A stretch of 64,000 nt of DNA from Candidatus Zixiibacteriota bacterium (GTDB taxonomy: Bacteria > Zixibacteria > MSB-5A5 > DSPP01): the NCBI GenBank assembly GCA_022614805.1, contig JAKEHY010000017.1, forward strand, positions 62,001 through 126,000. The letters run 5' to 3'. Shown here in pieces: positions 3,699 to 45,605 of this stretch. The translations under genes were made by a program, and so were the position numbers. Position 1 is the first letter of the stretch, and the number at the start of each line of letters is the position of its first letter. A model generated the notes under the pieces. That model made no database searches, was not told where the DNA came from, and saw only the letters and a program-made list of their open reading frames with translations.

Positions 3699-3753
3699 GT
3701 TGTGCCGGGAGTCACTCCCGACACCGGCTCTCGGAGCAACTCCTGACGCAACC
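3699..3753. repeat. Palindromic element, family 2 (intergenic copy)
   Basis: Contains two nested palindromes: GTGCCGGGAGT-CACTCCCGACAC and the neighbouring CTCGGAGCAACTCCTGACGC. Read on the minus strand it runs GGTTGCGTCAGGAGTTGCTC, then GTGTCGGGAG, then ACTCCCGGCACA. The same words in the same order occur inside xerC at 36600-36678. It lies between the amidase and murI genes; the murI frame reads through it, giving the peptide VSGVTPGTT, close to VSGVTPDAR in XerC. Confidence 0.75.
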
Positions 3754-13955: not shown

Positions 13956-14960
13956 ATGAAAATCGCCATCAACGGTTTCGGACGGATAGGGCGGCTGGTT
14001 CTGCGGGCCGGGCTGGACAACCGCAACCTTGATTTTATCGCCGTAAACGACATCACCGACGCCAAAACCCTGGCTCATTTGTTGAAATACGATTCCATCC
14101 ACGGCCCCCTGGACCGGCCCGTCCAAGCGGAGGGGGGCTCGATTATCGTCAATGGCAAAAAAATAGATGTACTTTCCGAAAAGGAGCCTAACCATCTTCC
14201 CTGGAAAAAGTTTGGCATTGACATCGTTGTCGAGGCCTCCGGCAAATTCACCGACCGGGACGGGGCCGCCCGGCATTTGACCGCGGGAGCCAAAAAAGTC
14301 TTAATCTCCGCCCCCGCCAAGGGGCCGGATGTAACGATAGTTTTAGGCGTAAATCACAAAAACTACGACCCGGTCAAACACAACCTTGTTTCCATCGGCT
14401 CCTGCACCACGAACTGCCTCGCGCCGGTGGCCAAGGTGCTGGACGACAATTTCGGCATCGTCAAAGGGTTTATGAACACCGTTCACGCTTTCACCAATGA
14501 CCAGCGTACGCAGGACCAGCCCCACAAGGACCTGCGCCGGGCCCGCGCCGCTTCGCTTTCGCTTATCCCCACCACCACCGGCGCCGCCAAAGCGATTTCC
14601 GAGGTTTTGCCGAACCTGAAGGGGAAACTGGACGGCATTTCCGTGCGGGTGCCGGTGGCGGACGGCTCGCTTTTGGACCTGACCTGCGTTTTGGAAAAGG
14701 AAACCACGGCCGAGGAAGTGAACGCGACGATGGAAAAAGCAGCCGTTGGGGGGCTCAAAGGCATCTTAGAATACCAGACCGATCCGATTGTCTCCGCCGA
14801 TGTCATCGGCAACCCGCATTCCGCGATTTTCGACTCGCTGTCGACCGCCGTCATCGGCAAAAACCTGGTGAAAGTCCTGGCCTGGTATGACAACGAATGG
14901 GGGTTCTCCTGCCGGATGGTGGAAACGCTGGAGATGATGGGGAAAAACTTTGCCGATTGA
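13956..14960 (+). CDS. gapA: Glyceraldehyde-3-phosphate dehydrogenase
   Basis: Oxidises glyceraldehyde 3-phosphate to 1,3-bisphosphoglycerate with NAD(P). The 334-residue protein has the N-terminal Rossmann motif INGFGRIGR, the catalytic Cys150 in SIGSCTTNC, the following HAFTNDQ, and the WYDNEWGFS signature at the end. The family length is normal. GGAGG lies seven bases before the ATG. The pgk frame starts inside its last codons, so the two genes are coupled. Confidence 0.97.
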   Translation: MKIAINGFGRIGRLVLRAGLDNRNLDFIAVNDITDAKTLAHLLKYDSIHGPLDRPVQAEGGSIIVNGKKIDVLSEKEPNHLPWKKFGIDIVVEASGKFTDRDGAARHLTAGAKKVLISAPAKGPDVTIVLGVNHKNYDPVKHNLVSIGSCTTNCLAPVAKVLDDNFGIVKGFMNTVHAFTNDQRTQDQPHKDLRRARAASLSLIPTTTGAAKAISEVLPNLKGKLDGISVRVPVADGSLLDLTCVLEKETTAEEVNATMEKAAVGGLKGILEYQTDPIVSADVIGNPHSAIFDSLSTAVIGKNLVKVLAWYDNEWGFSCRMVETLEMMGKNFAD

Positions 14961-16155
14961 AACGGCGGCCTTGAACAAGCTCTCCTTCGACCGGCTGGAC
15001 GTAAGAGGAAAGCGGGTTTTGGTCCGGGTTGATTTCAATGTGCCCGTCGAAGGAAACCAAGTTTCCGACGCCACCCGCATCAAAGAATCCCTCCCCACCA
15101 TTCAAAAACTTATCCGCGACGGCGCCAAAGTGATTCTGATGTCCCATCTGGGCCGCCCGAGAAAGGGGCCGGCACCGGAATTTTCCCTGGCCCCCGTGCG
15201 CAATAAACTGGCCGACTTTTTGGGCCAGCCAGTGGAGTTCGCCGCCGACTGCATTGGCCCAGAGGCAGAGGCCAAAGCCCAAGGCTTGAAGCCGGGGGAG
15301 GTGCTGCTTTTGGAAAATCTCCGCTTTCATCCCGAAGAGGAAAAAAACGACTTGGAATTCTCCAAAAAATTGGCCCGGCTGGGGGAAATCTATGTCAATG
15401 ACGCTTTCGGCTCGGCCCATAGGGCCCATGCCTCCACGGCCGGTGTGGCCCAATTCTTCGAAAAGCGCGCGGGGGGTTACCTGATGCAAAAGGAGTTAAA
15501 ATTTTTGGGGCAGTTGCTTTCCGACCCGGAACGGCCGTTCGTGGCTATTCTGGGAGGGGCCAAGGTTTCCGACAAAATTGCCGTTATCGAAAACCTGCTC
15601 CCCAAAGTGGACAAACTCTTAATCGGCGGCGGTATGGCCTACACTTTTGTGGCCGTACAGGGAAAAAAAGTGGGAGCTTCCATACTTGAACCGGAACGGC
15701 TTGAGTTGGCCGGAACGCTTTTGCAAAAGGGGAAGGATAAAATCGTTCTGCCAGAGGATTCGATGGTCGCCCCGGAGGTAAAACCGGACATCACCGTGCA
15801 AATTTATCCCTCCGATGAAATCCCGGACGGACTGAAGGGGCTGGATATCGGCCCCAAGGCGGCCGAAAACTTCGGCCTTATTCTGGACAAGGCCAAAACC
15901 GTGCTCTGGAACGGGCCTGTGGGGGTGTTTGAGGTTTCCCCATTCGACGCCGGCACCAAGAAAATCGGCCAAAAGTTGGCCGAGCTTACCGCCCGGGGAG
16001 CCATCACGGTGGTCGGCGGAGGGGACACTGCCGCCGCCTGCGCCCGCTTTGGCCTCTCCGACAAAATGTCGCACATCTCCACCGGCGGCGGGGCTGCGCT
16101 CGAATTTCTGGAAGGCAAAACGCTGCCCGGCGTGGCCGCTCTTTCGGACGCGTAG
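14950..16155 (+). CDS. pgk: Phosphoglycerate kinase
   Basis: Transfers the acyl phosphate of 1,3-bisphosphoglycerate to ADP. Signatures include KRVLVRVDFNVP, MSHLGRP, the LLENLRFHPEE region, GGAKVSDKI and the C-terminal VVGGGDTAAA and HISTGGGAALE. The frame opens at TTG 14950, inside the end of gapA and after GGGGAAAAAC; a second TTG at 14971 is also possible and no ATG is available. About 400 residues, normal for the family. The TAG stop is part of a REP-like palindrome (16152-16179), so the element fixes the C-terminus. Confidence 0.96.
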   Translation: MPIETAALNKLSFDRLDVRGKRVLVRVDFNVPVEGNQVSDATRIKESLPTIQKLIRDGAKVILMSHLGRPRKGPAPEFSLAPVRNKLADFLGQPVEFAADCIGPEAEAKAQGLKPGEVLLLENLRFHPEEEKNDLEFSKKLARLGEIYVNDAFGSAHRAHASTAGVAQFFEKRAGGYLMQKELKFLGQLLSDPERPFVAILGGAKVSDKIAVIENLLPKVDKLLIGGGMAYTFVAVQGKKVGASILEPERLELAGTLLQKGKDKIVLPEDSMVAPEVKPDITVQIYPSDEIPDGLKGLDIGPKAAENFGLILDKAKTVLWNGPVGVFEVSPFDAGTKKIGQKLAELTARGAITVVGGGDTAAACARFGLSDKMSHISTGGGAALEFLEGKTLPGVAALSDA

Positions 16156-16179
16156 GGGTTTAATTTATTAAACCCCTAC
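16152..16179. repeat. REP-like palindrome GTAGGGGTTT...AAACCCCTAC
   Basis: A 28-base perfect inverted repeat: GTAGGGGTTTAAT on the left, ATTAAACCCCTAC on the right. It starts with GTAG at the foot of the stem. It supplies the pgk stop codon and ends six bases before the tpiA ATG. Confidence 0.85.
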
Positions 16180-17459: not shown

Positions 17460-17487
17460 GTAGGGGTTTGATTAATCAAACCCCTAC
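17460..17487. repeat. REP-like palindrome GTAGGGGTTTGATTAATC...
   Basis: Perfect 28-base inverted repeat, identical to the copies at 36297 and 41397: left half GTAGGGGTTTGATT, right half AATCAAACCCCTAC. It lies 17 bases after the secG stop and could also act as a 3' stem-loop for the secG transcript. Confidence 0.85.
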
Positions 17488-20314: not shown

Positions 20315-21211
20315 ATGAGTCCAAAAACAGCGGAATGGAAGGTGGGGCTGGTCATTTTGGCCGCCGTCGCCCTTTTGATATACGGGATAATCTGGATACG
20401 GGGAGCCCGCTTCGGCCGGCAAACCTATCCGGTGGCGGTGATTTTTCCCAACGTCGGTTCCCTCTCCGCCGGCGACCCGGTTTCCGTTTCCGGCGTGCTG
20501 AAGGGAAAAGTAAAAAAAATCGAGCTCTATCAGGGGGATGTGCGGGTTCATTTTACCCTCGAAAAGGACGTGGTTTTGAAGAAAGACGCCCGCTTCACGG
20601 TGATGAACATCGGGCTGATGGGGGAGCGGTTCGTGGCGGTGGAAACGGGGAAATCGGATACCCTGCTTTCTCTGACTCCCTACCCCCGCGGTTACTATGA
20701 CACGGGAATCCCGGAAGTGATGGGGATGATGGGGCGGATGATGGACGAGGTCAGAAAATTGGTGGAAGCCTTGCGCGGCTCCATCGGCTCGCCCGGATAT
20801 CTGGAAAAACTGGCTTCCATCGCGGAACAGGCGGAAGATATGAGCAAAAGGATAAACCGGCTTTTGGCGAAAAATGAGGGCAAGGTGAACACGGCCTTTG
20901 ACGATTTGTCCCGCGCCGCCAGCCAGCTAAAGAATTCGATTGCTAAAAACGCCGACGCTTTCGATTCCACGCTTGGCAACTTACACACGGCCTCGCAAAA
21001 AGTTGCCCCTTTGGTGGACGGGCTCGATTCGCTTCGGCTCTCTTTCAGGCGGATTACCAACCAGATAGAAAAGCAGGAGGGGACCTTGGGCAAACTGGTT
21101 TTTGACCGGACGCTCTATGACCAGATGCGCAAAACCACTCGTGATTTGGATTCTTTGATTCTGGACGTAAAACGCAACCCCCGCCGCTATTTGACGATTA
21201 AAGTGTTTTAA
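20315..21211 (+). CDS. MlaD/MCE-family lipid transport protein
   Basis: Periplasmic, inner-membrane-anchored component of an ABC-linked lipid transporter. One membrane segment (about 8-28) is followed by an MCE domain (about 35-115, with YPVAVIFPNVGSLSAGDPVSVSG split over the typical FPNVGSLSAGDPV motif) and a long helical region (about 135-280) that may form a tunnel through the periplasm. No MlaE permease or MlaF ATPase gene is adjacent. The stop shares a base with the next start (TAATG). It ends KRNPRRYLTIKVF, like the second MCE protein at 63213 (KNPKKYVKLSIF), so the two are paralogues. Confidence 0.85.
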   Translation: MSPKTAEWKVGLVILAAVALLIYGIIWIRGARFGRQTYPVAVIFPNVGSLSAGDPVSVSGVLKGKVKKIELYQGDVRVHFTLEKDVVLKKDARFTVMNIGLMGERFVAVETGKSDTLLSLTPYPRGYYDTGIPEVMGMMGRMMDEVRKLVEALRGSIGSPGYLEKLASIAEQAEDMSKRINRLLAKNEGKVNTAFDDLSRAASQLKNSIAKNADAFDSTLGNLHTASQKVAPLVDGLDSLRLSFRRITNQIEKQEGTLGKLVFDRTLYDQMRKTTRDLDSLILDVKRNPRRYLTIKVF

Positions 21212-36296: not shown

Positions 36297-36324
36297 GTAG
36301 GGGTTTGATTAATCAAACCCCTAC
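36297..36324. repeat. REP-like palindrome GTAGGGGTTTGATTAATC... at the xerC stop
   Basis: Same 28 bases as at 17460 and 41397. Its right-hand CTAC holds the xerC stop (TAG on the minus strand), so the element defines the end of the recombinase. It occupies the xerC-hslV gap. Confidence 0.85.
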
Positions 36325-37316
36325 CTGCGGGAAAACTTTTTATGCTGTTCTTTGAGCCACTCCGGGTCGACGGCGGTGTAAATCTGGGTGGTGGAGATTT
36401 TGCTGTGGCCCAAAAGCTCCTGCAGGGAGCGCAAATCAATGCCCCGGCGGTAGAGATGAGTGGCGAAGGTATGACGCAGGGCGTGAGGGGAAATGTCGGG
36501 CCGGCCGTCGACGGTCAGGAGCACCTTTTTGACCATCCGAGCGATGCCCCGCCGGGAAAAAGCCGTGCCATCTTCCTTGCAAAACAACATTTCGAATCTG
36601 CTGTGACGGGAGTTATTTAGGGTGAGCAGAGTCGAACCGCTCCCGACACGGGCGTCAGGAGTAACTCCGGACACAACCCTTTTTTCGGCAGTTTCGCAAA
36701 TGTCAAGATAAACCCTCAATGCCTCAACTGCCTTTTCAGTCATAGGCACTCCGCGGGCTTTCCCCCCCTTGCCCAAAACCTGCACCCAGCAACGCTCCAA
36801 GTCAAGGTCGTCCCGTTTCAGAGTTGAAAGTTCCCCCAGCCGCAGGCCGGAGGAGTAAAAAAGCTCCAAAATGGCCCGATTGCGGGCTTTTTCGAATGCC
36901 GTAGCACCCGGGCCCGGGACAACCGGTTCGTCAAAAAGTTTCTCCACCTGCCGCTCATTCAAGCTTCTCGGCGGTTTGCGGACAAATTTGGGGGAGGAAA
37001 TGTAAACGGAAAGGTCTTCCGCGCTCCGCTCCGTGCGGTAAAGGAACTTGAAAAACTGCCGCAGGGTGGAGGCCCGCCGGGAAAGCGTCCGGCCGGACTG
37101 CCCGGCTACGGCGCCCAGGCGGGTGAAATAGGCGCGGAAACTATCCGGGCCGATTTTGTCCGGCTCAAAGTCCGCCTCGAAATTTTTATACCCGAGCGCG
37201 TCAAAGAAAAGAGCCAAATCCTTACGATAGGCATTCAGGGTATTGGGTGAAACGCATTTCTTTTTCAGGTGAGTTAAAAATTCCCCCAGAACGGCTTGCA
37301 CCAATTCGGCGGACAT
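36321..37316 (-). CDS. xerC: Tyrosine recombinase XerC/XerD with an in-frame palindromic insert
   Basis: Chromosome-dimer-resolving site-specific recombinase. 331 residues, about 27-30 longer than most Xer proteins. The SAM-like N-terminal domain is intact (TLNAYRKDL). Catalytic residues are all visible: Arg159 in SGLRLGEL, the beta-strand Lys in GKGGKARGVP, His278 and Arg281 in HALRHTF, His304 in LLGHSK and Tyr313 in QIYTAV. Residues 214-240 (VVSGVTPDAR... to NNSRHSR) have no counterpart in the family and are encoded by a palindromic element (36600-36678). Removing them joins CETAEKR to FEMLFCKEDG in the normal way. The stop is provided by a REP palindrome. It lies one base after topA. Confidence 0.92.
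   Translation of the reverse strand: MSAELVQAVLGEFLTHLKKKCVSPNTLNAYRKDLALFFDALGYKNFEADFEPDKIGPDSFRAYFTRLGAVAGQSGRTLSRRASTLRQFFKFLYRTERSAEDLSVYISSPKFVRKPPRSLNERQVEKLFDEPVVPGPGATAFEKARNRAILELFYSSGLRLGELSTLKRDDLDLERCWVQVLGKGGKARGVPMTEKAVEALRVYLDICETAEKRVVSGVTPDARVGSGSTLLTLNNSRHSRFEMLFCKEDGTAFSRRGIARMVKKVLLTVDGRPDISPHALRHTFATHLYRRGIDLRSLQELLGHSKISTTQIYTAVDPEWLKEQHKKFSRR
36600..36678. repeat. Palindromic element, family 2, inside xerC
   Basis: On the minus strand: GGTTGTGTCCGGAGTTACTC, then CGTGTCGGGAG, a 26-base middle containing GGTTCGACTCTGCTCACCC, then ACTCCCGTCACA. The outer words and their order match the intergenic copy at 3699-3753, which lacks the middle. Outer arms GTGACGGGAG and CTCCCGACAC pair with one mismatch. 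The reading frame stays open through it. Confidence 0.8.
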
Positions 37317-44582: not shown

Positions 44583-45605
44583 CTACTTAAGTATGATCCA
44601 ACCCAGAACTGACAATAAAATTATAATTCCGCCAATAATCCAGAAGATTTTTTGGGCGAAAAACAGATTTTTTTTGGGCTCCTTCCCCGTCCGGGGAGGG
44701 GCGAAATCGAGCCGGTCGCCGGAGGCGAGCCGGAAGATGGTGGGGACTTTCTCGCTCAAAATGCCGATTTCATCCCCGATTTTGAGAGGCAACCCCTTCT
44801 CCGGCTTGATTTTTTTTCCGTTGACCATCACCCCCAACTTGGAACCGACATCAAGGATGGAAAAATCAACGCCCCCGCCGCCGGGGGTAAAAATGTTCGA
44901 CCAGAAAAAGGAGGCGTGGCGGCGGGAGATGGAGGTATCCAGCTCCCCCTGTTCATCCTCCCGCACGACGATTTCGTTCGCCTCCTTATCCCGCCCGATT
45001 TTGGTCTCTCCCGGCTTAACCCGAAACCGCCGGCCGGCCAGAGGCCCCCAGACGGCCAAAAAATAGTATTCGTCCGCATGGGCGGGAGCTTCAAAAACGT
45101 CGCTAATCTTTGTCCGCTCCGGCCGTGCGGCTATCATCGTTTTCTCCGCCGCCGCATCGCGGGCTGCCGGACGGGAGGCCGCCGGTTCTTTTGGTTTAGG
45201 AGAAGTCGGCGACGATTGCTGAATTTGGGGAATTTTACCGGTGGGGGCTTCGGGTTCCGGCCCGGTCGAAAGAGAGGGAGGCGGCGACTCGACGGCCAAT
45301 CCCTCCGCCTCCTCCGGCAGACGGCTGAAAACCAGAATATATGGACCGATTTTTATTTCGTCCCCGTCCGAAAGCGGCCGTTCGCCGGAAATTTCCGCCC
45401 CGTTGACGATGAGTTGCGGAAAAGCTCCGGCCGGCTTGATGAAAAAACCATGCCCTTTTGGCCAGATGACGGCTTCTTCCTTCCCCACCGTCCAGTCATC
45501 GATTTTAACGTCCGCCAGCCGGTCGGAGCCGACCCGCAAGCTTTTGGCCTCGAGGCGGAATATTTGAACGATTTCGGAATCTTTTTTTAAGACAATTTTG
45601 GGCAT
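44583..45605 (-). CDS. Double-FHA membrane-anchored protein
   Basis: 340 residues. A first, degenerate FHA-like domain (about 1-95: LRVGSDRLADVKIDD), a low-complexity linker, a canonical FHA domain (about 160-275, with IGRDKEANEIVV, SISRRHASF and LGVMVNGKKI), and one C-terminal membrane segment (IFWIIGGIIILLSVLGWIIL). FHA domains bind phosphothreonine, so this protein is a likely substrate or adaptor of the kinase seven bases upstream. The C-terminal anchor would hold it at the inner face of the membrane. Confidence 0.85.
   Translation of the reverse strand: MPKIVLKKDSEIVQIFRLEAKSLRVGSDRLADVKIDDWTVGKEEAVIWPKGHGFFIKPAGAFPQLIVNGAEISGERPLSDGDEIKIGPYILVFSRLPEEAEGLAVESPPPSLSTGPEPEAPTGKIPQIQQSSPTSPKPKEPAASRPAARDAAAEKTMIAARPERTKISDVFEAPAHADEYYFLAVWGPLAGRRFRVKPGETKIGRDKEANEIVVREDEQGELDTSISRRHASFFWSNIFTPGGGGVDFSILDVGSKLGVMVNGKKIKPEKGLPLKIGDEIGILSEKVPTIFRLASGDRLDFAPPRTGKEPKKNLFFAQKIFWIIGGIIILLSVLGWIILK

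Follow-up and report, generated by a model that had tools for sequence, protein, structure and literature searches.

We found that the xerC gene of a Zixibacteria genome carries a 78-nt palindromic block, which is best read (probability about 0.85) as a REP-type non-autonomous mobile element moved by a RAYT, preserving the frame and riding as a passenger in a working XerC. RAYTs (TnpA-REP) are REP-associated tyrosine transposases of the IS200/IS605 Y1 class. The window, i.e., the whole stretch of 64,000 nt that was analyzed, comes from a genome of 2.56 Mb in 38 contigs that is 93% complete. The features on which the argument turns are as follows:

36321..37316, minus strand: xerC, tyrosine recombinase, 331 aa, flanked by topA and hslV; best profile match TIGR02224, below its cut-off
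36600..36677, minus strand: palindromic GTTG-REP dimer of 78 nt, in frame in xerC, residues 214-239 (VVSGVTPDARVGSGSTLLTLNNSRHS)
36652..36677, minus strand: hairpin unit 1, tagged GTTG, with a stem of 9 bp in which one pair is mismatched; 35.5 bits with covariance model R1
36600..36649, plus strand: hairpin unit 2, opposed head-to-head to unit 1, with a degenerate tag (GCTG) and a loop longer by 24 nt; 16.9 bits with model R1
36614..36639, minus strand: 26-nt middle of the unit 2 loop, standing in place of 2 nt and carrying GGTTCGACTCTGCTCACC
3699..3752, plus strand: second copy in the window, intergenic GTTG-REP dimer of 54 nt, just upstream of a likely murI-like start
36297..36324, minus strand: distinct palindrome with a GTAG tag (GTAGGGGTTTGATTAATCAAACCCCTAC); its TAG serves as the stop codon of xerC

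The name XerC is supported by the local gene order, topA-xerC-hslV-hslU. The protein scored 251 bits against TIGR02224, below the equivalog cut-off of 335 bits; since the uninserted XerC of a sister genome of the same genus (G001) also fell below it with 259 bits, the insert is not the cause of this low score. All six catalytic residues (R159, K183, H278, R281, H304, and Y313) are present and invariant across the homologue alignment, the reading frame stays open throughout the inserted block, and the predicted fold matches the structures of XerA, XerH, and XerD. The recombinase probably still works. Its dN/dS against G001 is about 0.106 over the aligned part, a value that mostly reflects the time before the insertion, and 20 neighbouring genes range from 0.025 to 0.24; judged by these ratios, the aligned part of xerC appears to evolve like its neighbours.

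The block starts exactly on codon 214 and stops on codon 239. An earlier note on this DNA had recognized the block and assigned it 27 residues (214-240, 36600-36678); the block stands, and its extent is corrected to 26 residues. It consists of two head-to-head hairpins of a basic 26-nt type, in each of which a GTTG tag precedes the palindrome YGTCRGGAGTNACTCCYGACR, and shares this two-hairpin layout with the intergenic copy at 3699..3752, in agreement with the kinship already proposed between the two. The enlarged middle adds a net 24 nt, or eight codons, to the usual dimer; the 26 bases reported for it were right for the xerC copy, whereas the other copy does not wholly lack a middle, as had been thought, but has 2 nt there. 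The insert peptide reads VVSGVTPDARVGS-GSTLLTLN-NSRHS, where the eight residues GSTLLTLN are the loop enlargement, and it matches the dimer consensus translated in the xerC frame, VASGVTPDAGVGSYSRHN.

The loop word GGTTCGACTCTGCTCACC recurs in the genome, also within the loops of unrelated palindromes, and enlarged loops were seen in other copies (C4 near 26420, C19 at 64269-64327, and C26 at 20488-20542). The word G[AG]TTCG[AG]CTNCGCTCACC was observed in the loops of unrelated GTAG-type palindromes (L039, L040, and L050 around 1501-1518) and likewise in the xerC element. It looks as if the loops of such palindromes swap or gain a common filler word. A reading of GGTTCGACTCTGCTCACC as a tRNA T-arm was considered and set aside for xerC: several look-alike matches seem by eye to be tRNA genes, and the xerC copy is not one. 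No Rfam family matching the element was found in the window.

Further copies of the repeat, for which a genome search had been proposed, are present. The pattern TCNGGAGTNACTCCNGA, with up to two mismatches allowed, matched 21 sites compared with two for the reversed control, and a stricter pattern matched 11 and 8 sites on the two strands compared with none on either strand for its control. Covariance model R1, built from 16 units with the xerC copy left out, recovered hairpin 1 of xerC with an E-value of 2.1e-5 over the 2.56-Mb genome; hairpin 2, with its enlarged loop, reached an E-value of 0.04 in the window and 1.6 genome-wide. By this model, the family comprises about 12 strong and 6 weaker loci. 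In a census based on pattern and model searches plus limited stretches of sequence, the xerC copy is the only intragenic one (about 1 of 18 loci); all others were judged to lie between genes, some of them a few bases from a stop codon. The gene downstream of the copy at 3699..3752 is presumably murI-like (glutamate racemase), judging from its sequence. A pattern match within a 1005-aa ORF (L032) forms only a weak palindrome and was put down to chance.

The anatomy of these copies is that of a broadly defined REP/BIME, namely a short, repeated palindromic hairpin found mainly between genes and forming outward-tagged, head-to-head dimers. The tag is one-sided, with GTTG in 13 of 17 units and the mirrored CAAC at the opposite end in only one of 17. 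In the stem, both partners of a pair had changed in 13 cells, compared with 5.0 in shuffles; such two-sided changes concern two pairs, one alternating between T-A and C-G and the other between G-C and A-T. Four intact dimers (GTTG...CAAC or close variants) occur in addition to that of xerC; they measure 54, 54, 54, and 53 nt and are open in two to four of the six frames, and in the xerC copy the coding frame is the sole open one. The in-frame fit follows from the usual dimer being 54 nt (18 codons) long and open in two to four frames.

Comparison with relatives indicates that the block is a derived feature. The window and the G001 genome are collinear, and few gaps or none interrupt the alignments of nearly all their orthologue pairs. 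Its XerC has 306 residues and no block, being a net 23 residues shorter at this place and 2 elsewhere. Across 17 homologues of the class (G001 included), the corresponding segment has 8-20 residues, compared with 38 in the window protein, which gives the gap that an alignment had been expected to reveal. Because G001 and the other homologues lack the block, its presence is assigned to the window lineage. In the manner of an intragenic in-frame REP, the frame of a conserved gene is kept and the block is absent from close relatives. The central claim of the earlier note therefore holds with the open frame, the six catalytic residues, and the uninserted sister protein: a repeat was inserted into xerC in frame and left the gene intact. 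Of the two outcomes that the note had named as fatal, the same block in the XerC of repeat-free relatives and a lack of further copies, neither occurred. The codons flanking the block differ from those of G001, so that the exact empty site is unreadable and a target duplication is not demonstrable. Another length difference from the sister species, in a protein at 44583-45605 (FHA-like by eye), concerns a proline-rich linker that has about 35 more residues in the same-genus genome; examined as a possible repeat insertion, it was rejected, as it contains no palindrome.

The insert belongs to the catalytic domain, where it follows the Lys strand and precedes the HxxR motif, as had been noted before. 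In an AlphaFold2 model, the kind of structure modelling that had been suggested, XerC adopts a Xer-like fold with a mean pLDDT of 85.5, which drops below 50 at residues 223-236; this low-confidence loop lies between helix 194-215 and the following strand. The model thus predicts that the insert occupies a disordered, flexible loop. One alternative is recruitment, in which selection maintains an added loop that alters XerC function, for example its specificity, its FtsK response, or its contact with a partner. Its location in the catalytic domain and the coding frame being the only open one of six both speak for this idea, but a working gene needs an open frame regardless, the sister species and other homologues manage without the insert, and the sequence, predicted to be disordered, stays near the repeat consensus. 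Recruitment is hence unlikely, and the insert probably has no selected role.

The link of the family to transposases comes from related genomes. Four RAYT loci there directly adjoin model matches (G047 C24, G047 C38, G036 C39, and G056 C85), so that the arrangement of a REPtron, a RAYT gene flanked by the same hairpin, occurs at four loci; at G047 C24, matches lie on both flanks. The four hairpin-adjacent RAYTs form one group by similarity, with 40-44% identity to the G047 C24 protein, which itself exceeds the cut-off of NF047646 (the NCBI model for REP-associated tyrosine transposase). The G047 C24 locus (L135, 3600-4370) was also seen to be a REPtron in which the RAYT gene is bracketed by GTTG hairpins, including arms with a different loop, GGACTAGGTCC. 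The window genome has four RAYT-type genes of its own (C4, C25, C26, and C27), none with a copy of the hairpin within about 1.5 kb; they were accordingly rejected as mobilizers, and no cognate RAYT for the GTTG hairpin was found in this 93% complete genome. Because these genes have no hairpins nearby, we infer, rather than observe, a RAYT-driven single-strand transposition of the xerC copy.

The exact core pattern is also present in Ignavibacteria and Bacteroidetes assemblies. A second in-frame palindrome was detected in a 395-aa aminotransferase of Ignavibacteria bacterium RIFOXYC2_FULL_35_21, where it reads SGVTPD like that of XerC; alignment of this protein to YbdL (1u08) shows gaps around the palindrome position. 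It is the only one of 41 checked matches outside the window genome that lies well inside a long ORF. As a separate observation, in an Ignavibacteria MAG (L153, 5508-6004) the 3' end of an aminotransferase gene is repeated, with 97% identity at the protein level, and a GTTG-REP core stands at each boundary of the repeat with a spacing of 237-239 nt.

A palindrome of the CGTC/RPE type, i.e., the Rickettsia class without a known transposase, would be a second alternative. CGTC-tagged REPs are known from two groups of FCB bacteria, the Bacteroidetes and the Chlorobi (PMC3733652), a report that weakens the earlier suggestion of rarity in FCB-type bacteria. Here YGTC comes after GTTG, and RPEs do insert in frame. 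The parallel drawn earlier with Rickettsia palindromic elements is a fair one. CGTC REPs are, however, defined by an unpaired CGTC tag, a stem opening with A-T pairs, and a CCA tail, and their families have no transposase link (PMC3733652). In the present family, YGTC is paired with GACR at the base of the stem, the stem does not open with A-T pairs, the CCA tail is found in 0 of 17 units, and RAYT genes adjoin GTTG copies. We consider this assignment quite improbable. Least plausible is ordinary variation in loop length, with no mobile DNA involved and a likeness to the repeat that is due to chance or convergence: the loop does range from 8 to 20 residues among homologues, but the DNA fits the repeat family in both hairpins and in order, the covariance model score contradicts a chance resemblance, the reversed pattern gives almost no matches, and the peptide fits the consensus.

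For the favored reading of a REP-type element in a working XerC, the most likely route of entry would be single-strand transposition by a RAYT acting in trans. The usual dimer has a length divisible by three (54 nt) and two to four open frames out of six, so it could enter a gene without shifting the frame. The insertion may have survived in xerC by landing in a flexible surface loop already variable in length, and the added residues would then travel as passengers of a recombinase whose function selection maintains. A REP loop variant, either there before the insertion or acquired after it, may account for the 24-nt enlargement. That a RAYT moved the xerC copy appears probable.

A second palindrome of a different kind ends the gene. 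GTAG ends of REPs can supply TAG stop codons (PMC3733652), and the palindrome at the end of xerC does so; the sister-species xerC ends in TAA and has no GTAG palindrome. The gene thus bears REP-type elements of two different kinds. Another GTAG palindrome, at 16152-16179, supplies the TAG stop of the ORF at 14950-16155, and further copies were seen at 17460 and 41397.

In-frame intragenic REPs have already been published for several phyla; what differs here is the GTTG tag, the adjacent RAYT group, and the XerC target. These, together with the second in-frame case, are the added value of this work, which adds a core tyrosine recombinase to the targets of in-frame REP insertion and the Zixibacteria lineage to its hosts. 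The family and its hairpin-adjacent transposase group allow the co-evolution of tag recognition and transposase to be tested, as well as whether inserts in working proteins are mere passengers. More tentatively, the GTTG hairpins and a dedicated RAYT clade might represent a so far undescribed lineage of REPs in FCB bacteria, one that places SGVTPD in proteins again and again, this peptide being recurrent because the dimer has 54 nt and only some frames are open. If so, the GTTG dimer would repeatedly provide core genes with new loops.

Among known systems, GTAG and CGTC REPs and their head-to-head dimers were described by Di Nocera and colleagues in 2013, whose catalogue of in-frame intragenic REPs covers several phyla beyond Rickettsia (with Opitutus, Thauera, and Stenotrophomonas among the hosts), many of the copies being in DNA repair and replication genes (PMC3733652). 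With the GTAG REP/BIME-RAYT systems (PMC3733652; PMC6006769) the GTTG family shares a hairpin of 20-30 nt with a one-sided 5' tetranucleotide tag and variable loops, head-to-head dimers that are mostly intergenic near gene ends, RAYT genes with the same hairpins alongside, and occasional in-frame intragenic copies of 20-30 residues. It differs in its hosts (Zixibacteria, Ignavibacteria, and Bacteroidetes), in its low copy number of about 12-18 loci, in the cognate RAYT not found in the window genome, and in its tag: in canonical REPs the guide tetranucleotide at the foot of the hairpin is GT[A/G]G (PMC6006769), whereas the third base here is T, although the one-sided position is as expected. 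No literature on REPs of Zixibacteria was apparent among the titles and abstracts that were considered. Like RPE and CGTC REPs, the family places palindromes in frame within working genes, including those of DNA metabolism; it differs from them in tag and stem and in the RAYT link of its related genomes, and RPEs are abundant and often intragenic, in contrast to 1 of about 18 loci here. Fungal mitochondrial double-hairpin elements, in which two consecutive hairpins form one mobile unit, occur in different organisms and are likened to the GTTG dimer by their two-hairpin layout alone. Tag and hairpin structure place the element nearer to the RAYT-linked REPs than to CGTC/RPE elements, and since its tag is GTTG despite a REP/RAYT anatomy and gene association, we regard the family as a variant rather than a canonical REP.
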